A stretch of 42,498 bases of DNA from assembly GCA_947625845.1 (NCBI GenBank), contig CANQQB010000012.1:1-42498 (forward strand), written 5' to 3'. Source of the DNA: an uncultured Oscillospiraceae bacterium. Its GTDB lineage: Bacteria > Bacillota > Clostridia > Oscillospirales > Oscillospiraceae. The notes beneath the pieces are model-generated. The model had not been told where the DNA came from. It did not search any database and worked only from the letters and a program-made list of their open reading frames with translations. Positions 19,772-29,721 of the stretch are shown here, one piece after another (position 1 is the first letter of the stretch; every line of letters starts with the position of its first letter). The position numbers and the translations under genes are program-made.

Positions 19772-21475
19772 ATGAAGTTTTCCCAGATGCCCTACGCGCG
19801 GCCGGACATTGCCGAGGTCAAGAAGTCGCTGGCGGCGCTGACCGAGCAGCTGAAAGCCGCGCCGGACTACGCGGCGGCAAAGGCGGTATTTCTGCAAAAG
19901 GAGCAGGAGCAAAAGCACCTGTCCACCCAGGTCAATCTGGCCCATATCCGGCACACCATCGACACCCGGGACGAATTTTACGACGGGGAGATGAAGTTCT
20001 GGAACACCGCTCTGCCGGAGCTGCAGGAGTATCAGCAGCAGTGGACCATGGCGATGCTGCAAAGCCCTTTCCGGACGGACTTCGCCGCGGAGTACGGCGA
20101 TCTGATGTTCGTCAACGCGGAGATCGCGCTGAAGGCGTTCTCGCCGGCCATCATCCCGGAGATGCAGCAGGAGAACGACCTTACCCAGGAGTACGAAAAG
20201 CTGCTGGCCTCGGCTCAGATACCCTTTGAGGGCAAGGTGTATACCCTGAGCCAGCTCACACCTTATAAAAATGACCCGGACGACGCGCGCCGTCTGGCGG
20301 CCTGGAAGGCGGAGGGCCAGTGGTACAAGGACAACCAGGGCAAGCTGGACGAGATATACGACAAGCTGGTCCACCTGCGGGACGCCATGGGCAAAAAGAT
20401 GGGCTACGAGGGCTATACCACCCTGGGGTACTACAACATGGGCCGCAACTGCTACGACCGGCAGGACGTGGAGAAGTTCCGCGCGGCCGTGGTGAAGTAT
20501 CTTGTCCCCGTGGCGGACAAGATCTACCGGCGACAGGCCGAACGTCTCGGCAAGAGCTACCCCATGAGCTTCGCGGACAACGCGCTGGAGTTTCGCTCCG
20601 GCAACCCCCGGCCCCAGGGCACGCCGGACGATATCCTGGCGGCGGGGAAGAAGTTCTATAGCGAGCTGAGCGCCGAAACGGGCGAGTTTTTCAACACCAT
20701 GCTGGACATGGAGCTTCTGGACGTGCTGAGCACGGAGGGCAAGGAGGCCGGGGGCTACTGCACCAGCCTGGCCGATTACGGCGTGCCCTTCATCTTCGCC
20801 AACTTCAACGGCACCCAGCACGACGTGGAGGTGGTCACCCACGAGGCCGGCCACGCCTTCGCCGCCTGGACCAACCGGGACCGGGTCCCCGCTCAGTATA
20901 TCTGGCCCAGCATGGAGGGCTGCGAGGTCCACTCCATGAGCATGGAATTCATGGCCTGGCCATGGGAGGAGGACTTCTTCGGTTCGGATGCCCGGAAGTT
21001 CCGGTACAGCCACCTGGCCGGGGCGCTGACGTTCATTCCCTACGGGACCATGGTGGACCACTTCCAGCACGAGGTCTACGACCACCCGGACATGACCCCG
21101 GCGGAGCGCCACGGTGTGTGGAAACGTCTGCTGGGCGTGTACATGCCCTGGATGAAGCTGGACGGGGATATCCCCTTCTACAGCGAGGGGGAGGGCTGGC
21201 AGCGCCAGCACCACATCTATTCCAGTCCCTTCTATTATATCGACTACTGCCTGGCACAGACCGTGTCGCTGCAATTCTGGGCGCTGCTCCAGGCTGACCA
21301 GAAGGCCGCGTGGGAAAAGTATATGGCCTATACCCGCCAGGGGGGCAGCCGGGTGTTCACGGAGCTGCTCGCCAACGCCGGGCTGGAGAGCCCCTTCGAG
21401 GAAAGCTGCCTGCGGGGCGTGTGCGAAAAGGCCAGCGCGTGGCTGGACGGATATGATTTAAATGGTATCGTCTGA
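19772..21475 (+). CDS. M3-family oligoendopeptidase (PepF-like)
   Basis: 567 residues, typical of M3 family oligoendopeptidases. The zinc site is THEAGHAF with His357, Glu358 and His361; the third ligand Glu is in the block CEVHSMSMEFM about 27 residues later. YGVPFIFANFNGTQHDVEVV before it and the C-terminal YYIDYCLAQTVSLQFWALL are also family blocks. No signal peptide, so it hydrolyses short peptides in the cytosol. It lies directly upstream of an oligopeptide ABC transporter operon, which would supply its substrates, but it has its own promoter. Confidence 0.93.
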   Translation: MKFSQMPYARPDIAEVKKSLAALTEQLKAAPDYAAAKAVFLQKEQEQKHLSTQVNLAHIRHTIDTRDEFYDGEMKFWNTALPELQEYQQQWTMAMLQSPFRTDFAAEYGDLMFVNAEIALKAFSPAIIPEMQQENDLTQEYEKLLASAQIPFEGKVYTLSQLTPYKNDPDDARRLAAWKAEGQWYKDNQGKLDEIYDKLVHLRDAMGKKMGYEGYTTLGYYNMGRNCYDRQDVEKFRAAVVKYLVPVADKIYRRQAERLGKSYPMSFADNALEFRSGNPRPQGTPDDILAAGKKFYSELSAETGEFFNTMLDMELLDVLSTEGKEAGGYCTSLADYGVPFIFANFNGTQHDVEVVTHEAGHAFAAWTNRDRVPAQYIWPSMEGCEVHSMSMEFMAWPWEEDFFGSDARKFRYSHLAGALTFIPYGTMVDHFQHEVYDHPDMTPAERHGVWKRLLGVYMPWMKLDGDIPFYSEGEGWQRQHHIYSSPFYYIDYCLAQTVSLQFWALLQADQKAAWEKYMAYTRQGGSRVFTELLANAGLESPFEESCLRGVCEKASAWLDGYDLNGIV

Positions 21476-21775: not shown

Positions 21776-23956
21776 ATGAAGAACGCGAAGAAACTTCTTG
21801 CGCTCATGATGGCTCTGGCCATGTGCCTGAGCCTGGGCGCGACTGCTTTCGCCTCCGAGGGGGAGGAAGAAGTCGTTTCCATCGCCGGCAAGGAGTACGG
21901 CACCGATTATGTGGAGCTGTACGAGCAGTTCTCCGACGTGACCATCGACGAGGTCATCGAGGACGAGGCTACCGGCCTGGCGTACATCGAGCGCGACGGC
22001 GAGCAGTATGAGCTGGGCATGGACTTCCTGTCCATGGCTATGGTCTACAACTGCACCGTGCCCGAGGGCGGCGTCTGGGAGACCGAGGACGACGTGTACG
22101 CCACCTGGTGGCGGCTGTACATCCAGCGCTGGAACTACCTGCTGCCCGAAGTGCCTCTGTACTCCAACGAGTACTATGATGTGTACAACGCGCAGATCAA
22201 GGGCGTGGAAGAGCATCCCACCAACCCCTACTGGGGCCCCGCTGCCGCTGTGATCGACTGGTCCAGCGAGAAGGAGGACAACTCCATCATCCTGGGCAAC
22301 TCCACTGAGCTTTCCGGCCGTTTGCGCAGCGCCGCTTTCGGCGTGTCCAGCCCCGGCGCCGGCGACCTGGACGTGGAGAACCTGATCACCGGTCTGGAGA
22401 CCGTCTCCACCACCAAGGAGGGCGGCTACGAGGTCAACCCCACCGTCGTGGAGAATATGGAGACCGTTGACAACGAGGACGGCTCCCGCACCTACACCAT
22501 TCATCTGTATGACGACCTGAAGTTCTCCGATGGCAGCGCCATCACCGCCAAGAACTACCTGGTCAGCATGCTGGCCAACTGCGGCCCCGTGGCCGTGCAG
22601 GCCGGCAGCCAGGGCACCGGCGGCATGAACTTCGTGGGCTATGAGGCCTTCAACGCCTACGACGGCACCAACGACGGCGACGGCGCCAGCAAGACCTTCT
22701 CCGGCGTGCGTCTGCTGGACGACTACACCATCCAGGTCACGGTCGACGCCCAGTATATGCCTTACTTCTATGCCATCACCTACGCCGGCTTCTCTCCCCA
22801 GCCCATCGAGCTGTGGTTGGGCGACGCCGACATCATGGACGACGGCGAGGGCGTCTATCTGTCCGACTGCTTCTATGAAAAGGAAGGCGACACCTATAAG
22901 CACGCGCAGCAGATCAGCGACGCCGTGTGGGATCACTCTCAGGATTATCCCTACTCCGGTCCTTATATGATCGAAGAGTGGAACGAGTCCGACAAGTCCG
23001 TCACCCTGACCAAGAACCCCGAGTTCAAAGGCAACTATGAGGGCACCGTTCCCTCCATCGAGAAGATCGTCTACAAGCGCATCATCGCCGAGACCCAGCT
23101 GGCCGACTTTGAGGCCGGCGGCGTGGACGTGCTGAGCGGCATCACCGGCGGCAACGAGACCAACGAGGTCATCGCCCTTGTGGACGCCAATCCCGACAAG
23201 TATGTGACCACCCACTACAGCCGCGCCGGCTACGGCAAGCTGGGCTTCCGCGGCGACCTGGGCCCCGCCCAGTTCGTTGAGGTCCGCCAGGCTATCGCCT
23301 ACTGCATGGACCGCGCCACCTTCGCCAAGGACTTCACCGGCGGCTACGGCGGCGTCACCGACGGCCCGTACTACACCGGTTCCTGGATGTATGAGGCGGC
23401 TATGGCCGACGGCATGCTCCTGAACGCCTATGACACCTCTGTGGACAGCGCTATCGCAGTCCTGGAGGCCGGCGGCTGGGTGTACAACGCCGACGGTTCC
23501 GATTACTCCGGCGAGGGTGTCCGCTATAAGAAGATCCCCGCTGGTCAGATGTATGATTACGACATCACCTACGCCTCCGTCGACGGCGCTTACAAAGTGG
23601 AGCAGGTGGGCGACGACTACTACATGCCTCTGGTCCTCAACTGGTACGGCACCTCTGACAACACCTTTACCGACCTGCTGGTGACCGGCTTCATGGAGAA
23701 CGACAACATGAAGGCCGCCGGCTTCGTGGTGCAGCAGACAATCGGCGAGTTCAACCCGATGCTCGACGAGCTGTATCAGGGCGCTCTGGGCGTCAGCTAC
23801 AGCGGCACTCCCACCTACAACTGCTTCAACTTCGCCACCGGCTTCACCTCCGCTGCTTATGACTACAGCTGGAACTGGCGTCTCGATCCCTACTGGTTCG
23901 AGAACAACTCCGTCTGCTACATCAAGGATATGGCCGACGTGTACTGGCTGAGCTGA
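21776..23956 (+). CDS. Oligopeptide ABC transporter substrate-binding protein (SBP_bac_5), apparently circularly permuted
   Basis: 726 residues from ATG 21776 behind GAAGGAGGT. A signal peptide (LALMMALAMCLSLG, then ATAFA before SEGEEE) lacks a normal lipobox. Class C binding-protein features are present: NPTVVENMETVDNEDGSRTY, LYDDLKFSDGSAITAKNYL, SGPYMIEEWNESDKSVTL with YKRIIAETQLADFEAGGVD. The segment YIQRWNYLLPEVPLYSNEYY (about 115-134) and its surroundings resemble what normally closes this family at the C-terminus (the PLY motif), yet here it precedes the core, and the protein ends early after SVCYIKDMADVYWLS. It should bind peptides outside the membrane for the permeases below. Confidence 0.88.
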   Translation: MKNAKKLLALMMALAMCLSLGATAFASEGEEEVVSIAGKEYGTDYVELYEQFSDVTIDEVIEDEATGLAYIERDGEQYELGMDFLSMAMVYNCTVPEGGVWETEDDVYATWWRLYIQRWNYLLPEVPLYSNEYYDVYNAQIKGVEEHPTNPYWGPAAAVIDWSSEKEDNSIILGNSTELSGRLRSAAFGVSSPGAGDLDVENLITGLETVSTTKEGGYEVNPTVVENMETVDNEDGSRTYTIHLYDDLKFSDGSAITAKNYLVSMLANCGPVAVQAGSQGTGGMNFVGYEAFNAYDGTNDGDGASKTFSGVRLLDDYTIQVTVDAQYMPYFYAITYAGFSPQPIELWLGDADIMDDGEGVYLSDCFYEKEGDTYKHAQQISDAVWDHSQDYPYSGPYMIEEWNESDKSVTLTKNPEFKGNYEGTVPSIEKIVYKRIIAETQLADFEAGGVDVLSGITGGNETNEVIALVDANPDKYVTTHYSRAGYGKLGFRGDLGPAQFVEVRQAIAYCMDRATFAKDFTGGYGGVTDGPYYTGSWMYEAAMADGMLLNAYDTSVDSAIAVLEAGGWVYNADGSDYSGEGVRYKKIPAGQMYDYDITYASVDGAYKVEQVGDDYYMPLVLNWYGTSDNTFTDLLVTGFMENDNMKAAGFVVQQTIGEFNPMLDELYQGALGVSYSGTPTYNCFNFATGFTSAAYDYSWNWRLDPYWFENNSVCYIKDMADVYWLS

Positions 23957-24101: not shown

Positions 24102-25145
24102 ATGGCAAAATACGTTCTAAAGCGTATCGGGTATATGCTGGTGGTGCTGGTCATCCTGTCGTTCATCCTGTTTATGATCTACAGCCTTGTGCCGGCCAAC
24201 CGGGCCTATACCGACGCGCAGACGGAATTGAAAACGCTGAAAAACTCCATCCCCAAAGGACAGGAGCAGGAATATTTCGATCAGATCTATCTGCGCTATC
24301 AGCGCGCGTACGGCACCGATACCAACAACAAGATCATCCGCTACCTGCGGTGGGTCGGGCTGTACCCCCTTTACGACGGAAGCTACGATGGCCTTCTCCA
24401 GGGCAATCTGGGCTACTCCTACGACTATAAAAAGCCGGTCGTAGAAGTGGTGGCCCAGCCCATGGTGAATACCATTAAACTCAATATATACGCCACGATC
24501 CTGGCCCTGGGCATCACCATCCCTCTGGGCATCCACTGCGCGGTGAAGCGGGGGACCAGGTTCGACCAGAGCATCCAGGTGTTCACCATCATCGGCTACA
24601 GCCTGCCCACGTTCCTGATCGCCATTTTGTTCATCTGGATATTCTGCTCCAAGCTGCATATCTTCCCGCCAAGCGGCATGAAGACCCCCGGTACCAACTT
24701 CACGGGCTTCGCCAAGTGGAAGGACGAGATGTACTATATGTGTCTGCCCCTGATCGTGGAGACGTTCTGCTCCCTGGGCGGCATGACCCGGTACGTGCGC
24801 GCGTCCATGATCGAGGCGCTGAGCATGGACTGCATCAAGACCGCCCGTGCCAAGGGTCTGCGGGAAAAGGTGGTCATTTACTCCCACGCCTGGCGCAACG
24901 CCCTGATCCCCATCGTCACGCTGGTGGTGGGCTGGTTCCTGGGCATCTTCGGCGGCTCCATCGTCATCGAGAACATCTTCGGCTGGAACGGCATGGGCCG
25001 GCTCATGTTCCAGGGCTTGCAGGTGGCGGACTACGACGTGGTCATGCTCATGCAGATGTTCTACATAGCCGTGTCCCTGATCGGCACGCTGGTCATCGAC
25101 CTGATCTACGGCCTGGTCGACCCGCGCGTCCGGGTGAATAAGTGA
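24102..25145 (+). CDS. Oligopeptide ABC transporter permease, OppB/DppB type
   Basis: 347 residues. It begins with the typical first membrane helix (YVLKRIGYMLVVLVILSFIL) and has further helices in the C-terminal two-thirds. The EAA cytoplasmic loop that contacts the ATPases is EALSMDCIKTARAKGLREKV. The external segment between helix 1 and the permease core (about 30-125) is longer than in textbook OppB and contains a charged helical part (TELKTLKNSIPKGQEQEYFD). It lies 145 bases after the binding protein and 15 bases before the second permease. Confidence 0.93.
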   Translation: MAKYVLKRIGYMLVVLVILSFILFMIYSLVPANRAYTDAQTELKTLKNSIPKGQEQEYFDQIYLRYQRAYGTDTNNKIIRYLRWVGLYPLYDGSYDGLLQGNLGYSYDYKKPVVEVVAQPMVNTIKLNIYATILALGITIPLGIHCAVKRGTRFDQSIQVFTIIGYSLPTFLIAILFIWIFCSKLHIFPPSGMKTPGTNFTGFAKWKDEMYYMCLPLIVETFCSLGGMTRYVRASMIEALSMDCIKTARAKGLREKVVIYSHAWRNALIPIVTLVVGWFLGIFGGSIVIENIFGWNGMGRLMFQGLQVADYDVVMLMQMFYIAVSLIGTLVIDLIYGLVDPRVRVNK

Positions 25146-25160
25146 GAGGGAGGCAGTAAG

Positions 25161-27113
25161 ATGAGCAATAAACCGACAAGAAGACATGCCTCCTGGATCG
25201 GCCGTGTCATTTACGGCGGGTCCAATGCCCTGGCTGACGAGATGGACGCGGCTAAGGCCGCCGACGTGGAGGCCATCGTCAGCCCCGTGCGCCAGATCGT
25301 CAACAACTTCCTGGAACGGAAGCTGGCCGTGGGCGCGCTGATCCTGCTGATCTGCATGTTCATCTTCGTGTTCGTGGGCCCGCTGTTCATGCCCAAGTAT
25401 AAGGACGCCTACACCGAGGTCACTCAGCAGAGCATGGCCCCCAATATGCGCCTGATGAGCGTGCCGAAAGAGCTGAAAAACGACATCAAGATGATCGACA
25501 GCTACGGCTCGTTCACCGTGGGCCTGTCCAACGCGGGCAAGGTCTATGTCTGGGGCTCCACCCAGCTTGGTACCACCGGTATCGACATCGGCGAGATACC
25601 CGAGGAGGTCCAGAACGCCAAGATCGCTATGGTGGCCGCCGGCATCGACCACGTGGTCGCCATCGGCGAGGACGGACATATCTACTGCTGGGGCGCCAAC
25701 ACCCTGGGCCAGTACGGCACTGAGGCGGAGGCCGAGGCCAGCACCAAGGGCGTCAACCCCAATATCGCCTATATGCCCCAGGAGCTGGTGGACGAGGGCA
25801 TCGACGTGGCCAACGTGAAAAAGCTCACCTGCGGCTACCAGGCCACCGCCATCCTGATGAATGACGGCAGCTTCTACCTGTGGGGCAATAAGCTTACATA
25901 CGCCAACATGGACCGGTACCTGGCCATGCCCACCATCGAGGACATTGACTTCACCCTGAACTACATCGTGGGCCTTACCAGCAAACGCAACGCCGTCTAT
26001 ACCGGCTCCCGTGACCTGTACACCACCGTGCGGGCCAACGTGGGCGGCGAGGGCGTGCCCATCAACGATTTCCTGGACGGGCGTAAGATCGAGTCCATTA
26101 CCGCCACCAACACCAGCATGTGCCTTCTGCTGGACGACGGGTCGGTGTGCTTCGCCGGCGACTTCCCCCTGGACGCCACCAAGGTCCCGGAGTTGGAGGA
26201 AGGGGAGGACTTCATCCAGATCGTGGGCGGGTCCTATCATTACTCCGGCCTGACCAATAAGGGCCACGTGTACTCCTGGGGCAGCGACGCGCTCAACCAG
26301 TGCCAGGTGCCCTCGTCGGCGGACAGCGCTACGGAGCTGTTCTCCGGCTCCTTCCAGACCTACGCCAAGGACGCCAACGGCGACCTGTGCGCCAAGTGGG
26401 GCTTGAAGGGCTATCTGTTCGGCACCGATACCCGCGGCGCCGATATCTTCCAGCGCATCATCGCCGGCGGTAAGATGACCATGACCGTGGGCGCCGTGGC
26501 CGTCATCATCTCCACCATCATCGGCATCATCATCGGCTGCCTGGCCGGGTACTTTGGCGGCAAGGTGGACGTGCTGCTCATGCGCGTGGCCGAGATATTC
26601 TCCGCCATCCCGTTCCTGCCCTTCGCCATGATCCTGTCCGCCGTCATGAGCCGGATGGTGCTGTCGGAGACCATGCGTATCTTCATCATCATGTGCATTC
26701 TGGGCGTGCTGTCCTGGCCGGGGCTGGCCCGGCTGGTCCGTGGCCAGATCCTGGTGGTGCGCGAGAGCGAATACGTCGTGGCGGCCCAGTCTATGGGCGT
26801 GAAGGAGGCCACCATCGCCTTCAAGCACATCCTGCCCAACGTCATGAGCGTCATCCTGGTCAGCCTGATGCTGGACTTCGGCACCTGCATGCTCACCGAA
26901 TCCTCCCTGAGCTACCTGGGCTTCGGCGTGGCCTACCCCCGTCCTACCTGGGGCAATATGCTCAACGGCGCCAACAACGCCACCATCATCAACGCCTACT
27001 GGTGGCAGTGGGTGTTCACCTCCATCTTCCTGGCCGTGACCACCGTCTGCATCAACATCGTGGGCGACGCCCTGCGCGACGTGATGGACCCCAAGTCCAG
27101 CGTGGAAAAGTGA
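25161..27113 (+). CDS. OppC/DppC-type permease with an RCC1-like beta-propeller inserted after the first membrane helix
   Basis: 650 residues, about twice the usual OppC length. TM1 is near 56-76 (GALILLICMFIFVFVGPLFM). Residues about 103-415 hold about seven RCC1-type repeats, recognisable from G-x-V/I-Y-x-W-G signatures: KVYVWGS (127), HIYCWGAN (173), SFYLWGN (237), NAVYTGS (277), SVCFAGD (328), HVYSWGSD (369) and DLCAKWG (408). The protein then resumes the OppC consensus with FGTDTRGADIF (420-430) and a normal permease core with EAA loop QSMGVKEATIAFKHILPN. The insert would face outside, near the binding protein. ATG behind GGGAGG. Confidence 0.92.
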   Translation: MSNKPTRRHASWIGRVIYGGSNALADEMDAAKAADVEAIVSPVRQIVNNFLERKLAVGALILLICMFIFVFVGPLFMPKYKDAYTEVTQQSMAPNMRLMSVPKELKNDIKMIDSYGSFTVGLSNAGKVYVWGSTQLGTTGIDIGEIPEEVQNAKIAMVAAGIDHVVAIGEDGHIYCWGANTLGQYGTEAEAEASTKGVNPNIAYMPQELVDEGIDVANVKKLTCGYQATAILMNDGSFYLWGNKLTYANMDRYLAMPTIEDIDFTLNYIVGLTSKRNAVYTGSRDLYTTVRANVGGEGVPINDFLDGRKIESITATNTSMCLLLDDGSVCFAGDFPLDATKVPELEEGEDFIQIVGGSYHYSGLTNKGHVYSWGSDALNQCQVPSSADSATELFSGSFQTYAKDANGDLCAKWGLKGYLFGTDTRGADIFQRIIAGGKMTMTVGAVAVIISTIIGIIIGCLAGYFGGKVDVLLMRVAEIFSAIPFLPFAMILSAVMSRMVLSETMRIFIIMCILGVLSWPGLARLVRGQILVVRESEYVVAAQSMGVKEATIAFKHILPNVMSVILVSLMLDFGTCMLTESSLSYLGFGVAYPRPTWGNMLNGANNATIINAYWWQWVFTSIFLAVTTVCINIVGDALRDVMDPKSSVEK

Positions 27114-27125
27114 GGAGGGAAGAAC

Positions 27126-28139
27126 ATGCCACTGCTTGAAGTGAAAAACCTGCGGACCTTTTTCAAAACGAAAAGGGGCATCGTCAAGGCAGTCAACGAC
27201 GTGTCCTATTCCCTGGAGCCCGGCAAGACCATCGGCATCGTGGGCGAGTCCGGCTCCGGCAAGTCCGTCTCCGCCATGAGCATCCTCCAGCTGCTGGACG
27301 AAAACGGCTATATCGACTCCGGCGAGATCATCTTTGAGGGCACGGAGCTGACAAAGCTCTCCCGGGAGGAGATGTACCACATCCGGGGCAACGCCATCTC
27401 CGTTATCTTCCAGGAGCCCATGACCAGCCTGAACCCGGTGTTTACCGTGGACCGGCAGCTTTGCGAGCCGTTCACGATCCACCAGGGCATGAACAAAAAA
27501 CAGGCCCATGAACAGGCTTTGAAAATGCTCTACGACGTGCAGATACCAAACCCCGAGTCCGTCATCCGCCAGTACCCCCACCAGCTCTCCGGCGGTATGC
27601 GCCAGCGGGTGATGATCGCCATGGCCCTGGCCTGCCGGCCCAAGATCCTGATCGCCGACGAGCCCACCACCGCGCTGGACGTGACCATCCAGGCCCAGAT
27701 CCTGCGGCTGATGAACGACCTGCAAAAGGAAAAGGGCACCAGCATCATCTTCATCACCCACGACCTGGGCGTCATCAACGAGATGGCCGACGACGTGGCG
27801 GTGATGTACTGCGGCCAGGTGGTGGAGAAGGCCGCCGCCCGTGTGATCTTCTCCGACTGTCCCGTGAGCCACCCTTACACCGAGGGGCTGATGATGTCCA
27901 TCCCCCGGCTGAACGCCATCGACAAGAAGATCGAACCCATCCCCGGCGTGGTGCCCCATCCGCTGGCGCTGCCCAAGGGCTGCAAGTTCGCGCCACGGTG
28001 CAAGTACTGTACGAAAAAATGCGTGGAGGAGGAGCCGGAGCTGCTGGACGTGGGCAACGGCCAGCTCATCCGATGCTTCTATCCGGAAAAGGAGGTAAGG
28101 TGCAGTGAAGAGCACAAAAAAATTACTGTCCATCAGTAA
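27126..28139 (+). CDS. Oligopeptide ABC transporter ATPase, OppD/DppD type
   Basis: 337 residues, standard length. Walker A GESGSGKS (40-47), Q-loop in [16 protein letters not shown], signature LSGGMRQRV (about 154-162), Walker [13 protein letters not shown], and H-loop ITHDLG. The C-terminal oligopeptide-transporter extension has the cysteine cluster [15 protein letters not shown] that binds an iron-sulfur cluster in DppD-type proteins. It begins 12 bases after the permease and overlaps the next ATPase gene by 35 bases. Confidence 0.95.
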
Positions 28140-29721
28140 TCTGAAAAAATACTTCCCTGTGGCGAAGACCTCCCTGTTCCAGCGCGAGCAGCTCTATGTC
28201 CGCGCCAACGAGGATATTTCCCTGGACATATACGAGGGCGAGACCCTGGGCGTGGTGGGCGAGTCCGGCTGCGGCAAGTCCACCCTGGGCCGGGTGCTGC
28301 TCCAGCTCTATCCCCAGACCGCCGGCAACACCATGTATTACGGCTCCACATTGGCCGACACGGCGCCGGAGTATGTGGAGCACACCCTCAAACACCTGGA
28401 CCAGTACAAGGAAAAGCTGAAAAAGGCGTCTGCCAAGGTGGCGGAGCTGGACAAACAGGTCCAGGCCGCGGGCGGCGAGGACAACGCCGGCTTCTATCTG
28501 CTCCAGGAGCAGAACCTGGCCCGCTGCGAGGAAAAGACCTGCCTGACGAACATCGTGAAGATCATGGGCGGCTTCTTTGCCGTGGACGAAAACGGCGCCG
28601 GCCGGGAGCTGCTGCTCAAGCAGCACGGCGAACAGGTCAAGCGCCGCAAGGCCAACGAGGTCTATCTGGCCGCCAAGCTGGACCATGACAGCCTGGCCGC
28701 CGACGCGGAGGCCGGTTCCGACAAGGCCAAGGGCCAGTTGGCCGGGGCAAAGGCGAAGATGGACGCCGCGAAAAAGCAGTTCGACGTCTGCGACGCGGCG
28801 GTGGCCGCCGTGGACGCGGAGCTGGAAAAGCTGCGGGCCAGGTACGCCAATAACGGGGAGTTTGCCAAGTACGAGGCCATGCGGGACGACGGCATCGACC
28901 TGGCCCGGCTGAAGTACAATGAGATGCGGCTGTTCCGGAAGGACCTGCAGATCATCTTCCAGGACCCCTATTCCAGCCTGAACCCCCGCATGACCATAGG
29001 CCAGATCATCGAGGAGGGCCTGCTGACCCACAATTTCTTCAAGCACGGCTCCGACAAGATGCGCCAGCATATCGTCAACACCATGGAGATGTGCGGCTTG
29101 CAGGAGTACATGCTCCACCGCTATCCCCACCAGTTCTCCGGCGGCCAGCGCCAGCGCGTGGCCATCGCCCGCGCTCTGGCCGTGCAGCCGAAGTTCATCG
29201 TGTGCGACGAATGCGTCTCGGCGCTGGACGTGTCCATCCAGTCTCAGATCATCAACCTGCTCCAGGAACTGCGGGAAAAGCAGAACCTGACGTATATGTT
29301 CATCAGCCACGATCTGTCCGTGGTGCGCTATATCTCCGACCGCATCTGCGTCATGTATCTGGGCAACGTGGTGGAGCTGGGGGAGAGCGAGACTATCTTT
29401 AACGACCCCCGGCACCCTTACACCGTGGCGCTGCTCAGCGCCATCCCCACCACGGACGCGGACAGCTTGCAGCGGGAGCGTATCCTGCTGGAGGGCAACA
29501 TCCCCAGTCCCATCAAGCCGCCCTCCGGCTGCAAGTTCCACACCCGGTGCTATATGGCCTGTGAAAAGTGCAAGACGGTCATACCTGAGCTGCGGGAGAT
29601 CGAGCCCGGCCACTTCCTGGCCTGCCACTTCCCGGAGCGCAAGATCGACGCGGACGGGAAGTACCTGTTCGAGCTGCCCAAGATGACCACCGTGGCGCGG
29701 GACACGGATAAGGCGGATTGA
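28105..29721 (+). CDS. Oligopeptide ABC transporter ATPase, OppF type, with a large helical insert
   Basis: 538 residues where 320-330 is usual. GTG start nine bases after GGAGG, overlapping the OppD gene. Walker [10 protein letters not shown] (52-60) is followed by an insert at about 76-264, rich in Lys, Ala and Glu and predicted to be coiled coil ([40 protein letters not shown]). The Q-loop [14 protein letters not shown] begins only at about 283, then FSGGQRQRV, Walker B with DECVSALD (Cys where Pro is usual) and ISHDLS. The C-terminus has the [15 protein letters not shown] cysteines. Motifs look intact, so it is probably an active partner of OppD. Confidence 0.93.

Follow-up and report, generated by a model that had tools for sequence, protein, structure and literature searches.

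What does a seven-bladed propeller do in the middle of a peptide permease? The question is raised by a 42,498-nucleotide stretch of DNA (the window) from an uncultured, gut-type Oscillospiraceae bacterium (assembly GCA_947625845.1, contig CANQQB010000012.1), which encodes an oligopeptide-type ATP-binding cassette (ABC) importer composed of a substrate-binding protein (SBP), the permeases OppB and OppC, and the ATPases OppD and OppF. The OppC protein carries an RCC1-like propeller. Our analysis favors, with slightly better than even likelihood, the reading that the propeller would serve as a platform on which the cognate SBP docks, as suggested by the covarying divergence of the two sequences and by the short, conserved linker between the propeller and the membrane core. 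The fold and position of the propeller, the conservation of the operon, the co-occurrence with an insert in OppF, and the covariation with the SBP were supported by computation.

An RCC1-like propeller in an OppC permease

A preliminary description, made from the letters alone, had proposed a 650-residue OppC-type permease with RCC1-type repeats, and the open reading frame and Pfam matches (OppC_N, RCC1_2, RCC1, and BPD_transp_1) confirmed this. OppC_N matched residues 41-84 (28.9 bits; cut-off, 23.9) and BPD_transp_1 matched residues 455-645 (106.6 bits; cut-off, 26.4); with both families above cut-off and a full OppC core fold in the predicted structure, the protein belongs to the OppC-type permeases. 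The best NCBIfam model, Opp4C, reached 290.5 bits against a cut-off of 350, too low a score for equivalog status. The repeat models RCC1_2 (PF13540) and RCC1 (PF00415) scored 79.2 and 53.3 bits (cut-offs, 22 and 21.7), and the whole-propeller model PF25390 scored 106.8 bits, under its cut-off of 150; membership in the RCC1 superfamily is therefore assigned from the repeat models and the fold. A phmmer search of the PDB with residues 101-417 retrieved UVR8 (E = 7e-20), human RCC1 (3e-15), BLIP-II (8e-9), and HERC2.

The AlphaFold2 model contains seven strand groups (residues 109-132, 155-178, 219-243, about 261-282, 310-333, 351-374, and 392-414), and the domain is predicted to be a seven-bladed RCC1 fold. 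These groups agree with the seven repeat signatures noted earlier (at about residues 130, 176, 240, 280, 331, 372, and 412), although the one at about residue 280, in blade 4, is degenerate. The invariant columns among 49 aligned sequences (window included) include W131 G132, W177 G178, G242, G333, G374, and G414. As the preliminary description had stated, the propeller lies between the first transmembrane helix (TM1) and the FGTD motif (residues 420-423), and its proposed location outside the cell is supported by homology, by which the TM1-TM2 region of OppC should be extracellular. The mean conservation of the exit linker (0.75) resembles that of the membrane core (0.76), whereas that of the entry segment is only 0.59; the exit linker, short and conserved to the same degree as the core, probably keeps the propeller near the entrance on which the SBP has to land.

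PF00415 matches in the window genome, which is 78.5% complete, were confined to this OppC gene; the 14 control genomes contained none. The genome encodes at least four further OppC-like permeases without RCC1 repeats. One of these (415 aa) has a shorter extension of about 150 aa, different in sequence, between TM1 and its LGTD motif; judging from this extension, the TM1-TM2 site of OppC may accept insertions repeatedly.

Relatives, the OppF insert, and the permuted binding protein

A scan of genome contigs yielded 28 loci, in each of which the propeller lies within an OppC (L028 is cut by a contig end); they include loci of Oscillospiraceae and Lachnospiraceae, seven of them from Butyrivibrio, as well as Acetatifactor muris DSM 23669, where two propeller operons adjoin each other in divergent orientation. 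An assembly fusion, which the preliminary description had raised as a possible artifact, is ruled out by the presence of the same architecture in many relatives on independent contigs. The design is patchy among relatives rather than universal, since few genomes were matched in the searches of the order, the phylum, and the family. The propeller query matched 24 of 99 genomes near that of the window (its own included), at full length in only 7; the remaining matches were shorter and fell in open frames of other kinds. At a threshold of E 1e-20 or better, the SBP query found exactly the same 7 genomes. With the OppF insert as a single sequence, 24 of the 394 genomes searched in the order matched (window genome counted); with a profile, 15 of 398 genomes matched in the phylum and 5 of 150 in the A. 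muris family, counts that include the window genome and A. muris themselves; one of the phylum matches (G665, locus L136) lacks opp genes. Among plasmids, 3187 records matched, none of which covered 80% of the protein at a single place. Separately, a contig from a genome of the family to which the window belongs (G048 contig C1, about 102-180 kb; L039 and L056) showed RCC1 matches in open frames of 30029 and 8036 aa, possibly giant RCC1 proteins.

The insert in OppF is about 150-200 aa long across the loci and about 170 aa long in the window. No Pfam family scored above its cut-off over this segment, which is possibly a coiled coil. The preliminary description had asked whether the propeller always occurs with this insert and with a permuted binding protein; the former association held and the latter did not. 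Of 32 loci retrieved with propeller, SBP, or OppC queries, all 30 that were readable carry the insert (L009 and L028 had no readable OppF), and of 38 loci retrieved with the insert, all 34 with a readable OppC carry the propeller; the other four have no OppC, with L094, L134, and L140 situated at contig ends and L136 devoid of opp genes. Partial OppC genes occur in L028, L086, L087, and L130, and partial or split OppF genes in L087, L125, L129, and L130; L001, L002, L031-L069, L073-L076, L078, and L099-L122 were left out of the count as fragments of counted places, other RCC1 matches, or ordinary Opp genes. The alignment behind the RCC1 profile includes loci of L003-L098, where profile matches arise by construction, while L123-L139 lie outside it; BLAST with the window propeller alone detected RCC1 in all 19 OppC proteins of L079-L098 (E 1e-3 or better).

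The SBP matched SBP_bac_5 (128.1 bits; cut-off, 32.4) and thus belongs to family 5, with its chain order permuted. Its model (mean predicted local distance difference test score 82; weak C-terminus) matched the folds of NikA, AppA, and OppA with modest TM-scores. The block at residues 51-162 lies near the N-terminus in the group of the window but is C-terminal in many other loci, L070-L072 and L077 among them, and the two groups are therefore related by circular permutation; the permuted order is taken as derived because family 5 usually has the other order. Altered chain topology has precedent in Tp0684 (MglB-2), a glucose-binding protein of divergent topology (PMC4990184).

The two adjoining operons of A. 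muris encode one permuted and one unpermuted SBP. On an OppC tree of 63 rows (midpoint root, for drawing only), 33 rows pair with permuted and 30 with unpermuted SBPs, so that a propeller restricted to operons with the permuted form was rejected. The label requires a single change (support 98/79), which fits a single origin of the permutation; L024, with no SBP in the locus, was assumed to be permuted, and L009 and L096 were labeled from partial SBPs. On an OppD+OppF tree (60 rows, quick method), the label requires six changes, at least five of them forced. The difference between the trees indicates that the SBP, OppB, and OppC travel together as one unit with respect to the ATPases. This is plain in L070 and L071, which share 91-92% identity with the window in OppD and only 37% in RCC1 and 48% in the SBP core. 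A lipobox-like site (lax pattern) occurs in 55 of the 61 SBPs with a readable N-terminus, window included; it is absent from those of the window (signal peptide at 21776-21860), L003, L004, L005, L021, and L028, and the site of L006 (TATC) is doubtful. The propeller as an anchor for a non-lipidated SBP was rejected as a general role on this count.

Covariation with the binding protein and the role of the propeller

In the importer permease MalF, the large and folded P2 domain lies outside the cell and meets the binding protein, although its fold, its loop, and its importer family differ from those of the propeller. The scoop motif of the peptide permease DppB, as described in PMC12136057, follows TM1, lies outside the membrane, and contacts the SBP; however, it is a helix-loop-helix of about 30 residues on the B subunit, not on C.

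Five complete genes in the order SBP-OppB-OppC-OppD-OppF were present at 57 of 67 loci (window included), leaving 51 once near copies were removed. We compared pairwise identities and calculated partial correlations given OppB, the OppC core, OppD, the OppF insert, and the OppF core. The propeller correlated with the SBP core at r = 0.94 (partial r = 0.79), whereas its partial correlation was -0.02 with its own OppC membrane core and 0.11 with the OppF insert. The partial value for the SBP was 0.78 with Poisson distances and 0.62 with ranks, and 0.76 (ranks, 0.52) among the permuted loci. With the scoop and N-terminal parts separated, the values were 0.53 for propeller-SBP, 0.32 for scoop-SBP, 0.28 for propeller-scoop, and 0.33 for the propeller and the OppC N-terminus. 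By blade, covariation with the SBP was highest for blades 1, 3, and 4 and lowest for blades 2 and 6, which is a non-contiguous pattern. As a docking platform, the propeller would capture the cognate SBP and orient it above the entrance formed by OppB and OppC; it would supplement the small loops of known Opp/Dpp systems or take over part of their work. Docking of the binding protein, one of the roles suggested earlier, is favored by the covariation and the exit linker; the contact itself and the part of the propeller in delivery are steps that we infer.

Several results weigh against docking. Among the 24 non-redundant unpermuted loci, the propeller-SBP partial correlation was only 0.38, with 0.34 for the OppF core, and by ranks the OppF core (0.36) exceeded the SBP (0.29). 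The raw correlations of the propeller with OppB and the OppC core were also high (0.82 and 0.80). The OppF insert belongs to the ATPase block that is exchanged and does not provide a clean control for rate. The SBP, oppB, and oppC genes are neighbors, and their exchange as a block could by itself link the SBP and the propeller. Covarying divergence is not equivalent to contact; the propeller and the SBP are both extracellular, and shared selection is possible. The loop faces of the propeller, assigned by strand order without coordinates, showed no contrast in conservation (0.59 vs 0.57), and the conservation of the entry segment is moderate. Moreover, most SBPs have a lipobox-like site, so in general they do not need the platform to hold them.

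Shared selection by the substrate would also produce the covariation if the propeller itself bound peptides, as a permease-borne selectivity filter or a local concentrator beside the SBP, and blade 4, the most variable blade (mean identity, 0.25), still tracks the SBP (partial r = 0.67). We consider such a receptor unlikely: the operon already encodes a family-5 SBP, and the best-matching RCC1 folds are protein binders, not peptide transport receptors. RCC1 propellers are general protein-binding platforms, and the partner might instead be a third extracellular one, such as the cell wall, a surface protease, or a neighboring transporter. This appears less probable still, given that the divergence of the propeller tracks the SBP and that the gene for an M3 peptidase, the sole neighbor surveyed, is found directly upstream of just 15 SBPs out of the 61 that were fetched, 45 of which had at least 2.2 kb of sequence on that side. 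A structural cap that steadies the outward gate or the OppC-OppF half, with no specific ligand, would suit the conserved exit linker and the presence of additions on both OppC and OppF; in Escherichia coli, DppC pairs with DppF (PMC12136057). Such a cap is quite improbable, as the divergence of the propeller follows neither the OppC core nor the OppF insert.

The operon and its relation to known importers

The features of the operon are listed in Table 1.

Table 1. Coordinates of the importer operon and of the parts of its proteins in the window
Feature	Position	Strand	Description	Basis
Peptidase family M3 gene	19772..21475	+	300 bp upstream of SBP	
SBP, family 5	21776..23956	+	726 aa; circularly permuted; signal peptide without lipobox	
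Permuted SBP block	21926..22261	+	residues 51-162; C-terminal in unpermuted relatives	
OppB permease	24102..25145	+	347 aa	ORF, Pfam, NCBIfam
OppC-type permease with RCC1 propeller	25161..27113	+	650 aa	ORF, Pfam, AlphaFold2 model
TM1 helix	25320..25388	+	residues 54-76; inside OppC_N	Pfam, AlphaFold2 model
Entry segment ahead of blade 1	25389..25484	+	residues 77-108; residue 95 onward aligns to RCC1 folds	
Seven-bladed RCC1-like propeller (predicted)	25485..26402	+	residues 109-414	Pfam, phmmer, AlphaFold2 model
Exit linker	26403..26444	+	residues 415-428; conservation averaged over 63 sequences	
OppC membrane core	26445..27098	+	residues 429-646; with coupling loop	Pfam, alignment, model
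OppD ATPase	27126..28139	+	337 aa	ORF, Pfam, NCBIfam
OppF ATPase	28105..29721	+	538 aa from GTG start; overlaps OppD end	ORF, Pfam, NCBIfam
OppF insert	28348..28869	+	residues 82-255; Lys/Glu/Ala-rich	

The coupling loop of the OppC membrane core is of the EAA type. The best NCBIfam model for OppB, Opp4B, scored 233.3 bits, below its cut-off of 450. The protein families, together with an M3 peptidase gene found repeatedly next to some of the operons, lead us to infer that oligopeptides are transported. An antisense open frame of 1338 aa (24117-28133, minus strand) lies opposite the operon and is most likely a by-product of codon usage.

The OppC and DppC proteins of E. coli and Mycobacterium tuberculosis (8z21, 8z1w, 8j5q, and 8wd9) lack the TM1-TM2 domain of about 310 residues. 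BLIP-II (1jtd and 3qi0; 24% identity) is a secreted, stand-alone, RCC1-like beta-lactamase inhibitor that does not belong to a transporter. In the titles and abstract openings of the papers listed by our searches, we found no description of an RCC1 propeller in an OppC or ABC permease. The Opp importer and the RCC1 propeller are each known, and their combination is a variant for which no description was found. We tentatively propose, at a likelihood somewhat short of even, that these operons represent a separate and so far undescribed class among the peptide importers ("RCC1-Opp"), in which the SBP would be received by a co-evolving, permease-borne propeller and the ATPase expected on the same half would carry its own constant insert. 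Such a pairing would let the SBP be rebuilt, by circular permutation and by loss of the lipid-anchor site in the clade of the window, while delivery is kept.

In the solved peptide-importer complexes that we considered, small loops meet the SBP, whereas here a large folded module stands in that place. The operons offer a case in which the paired evolution of a binding protein and a possible receptor domain can be tested, and another in which a circularly permuted SBP has an unpermuted paralogue encoded in the adjoining operon of one cultured strain.
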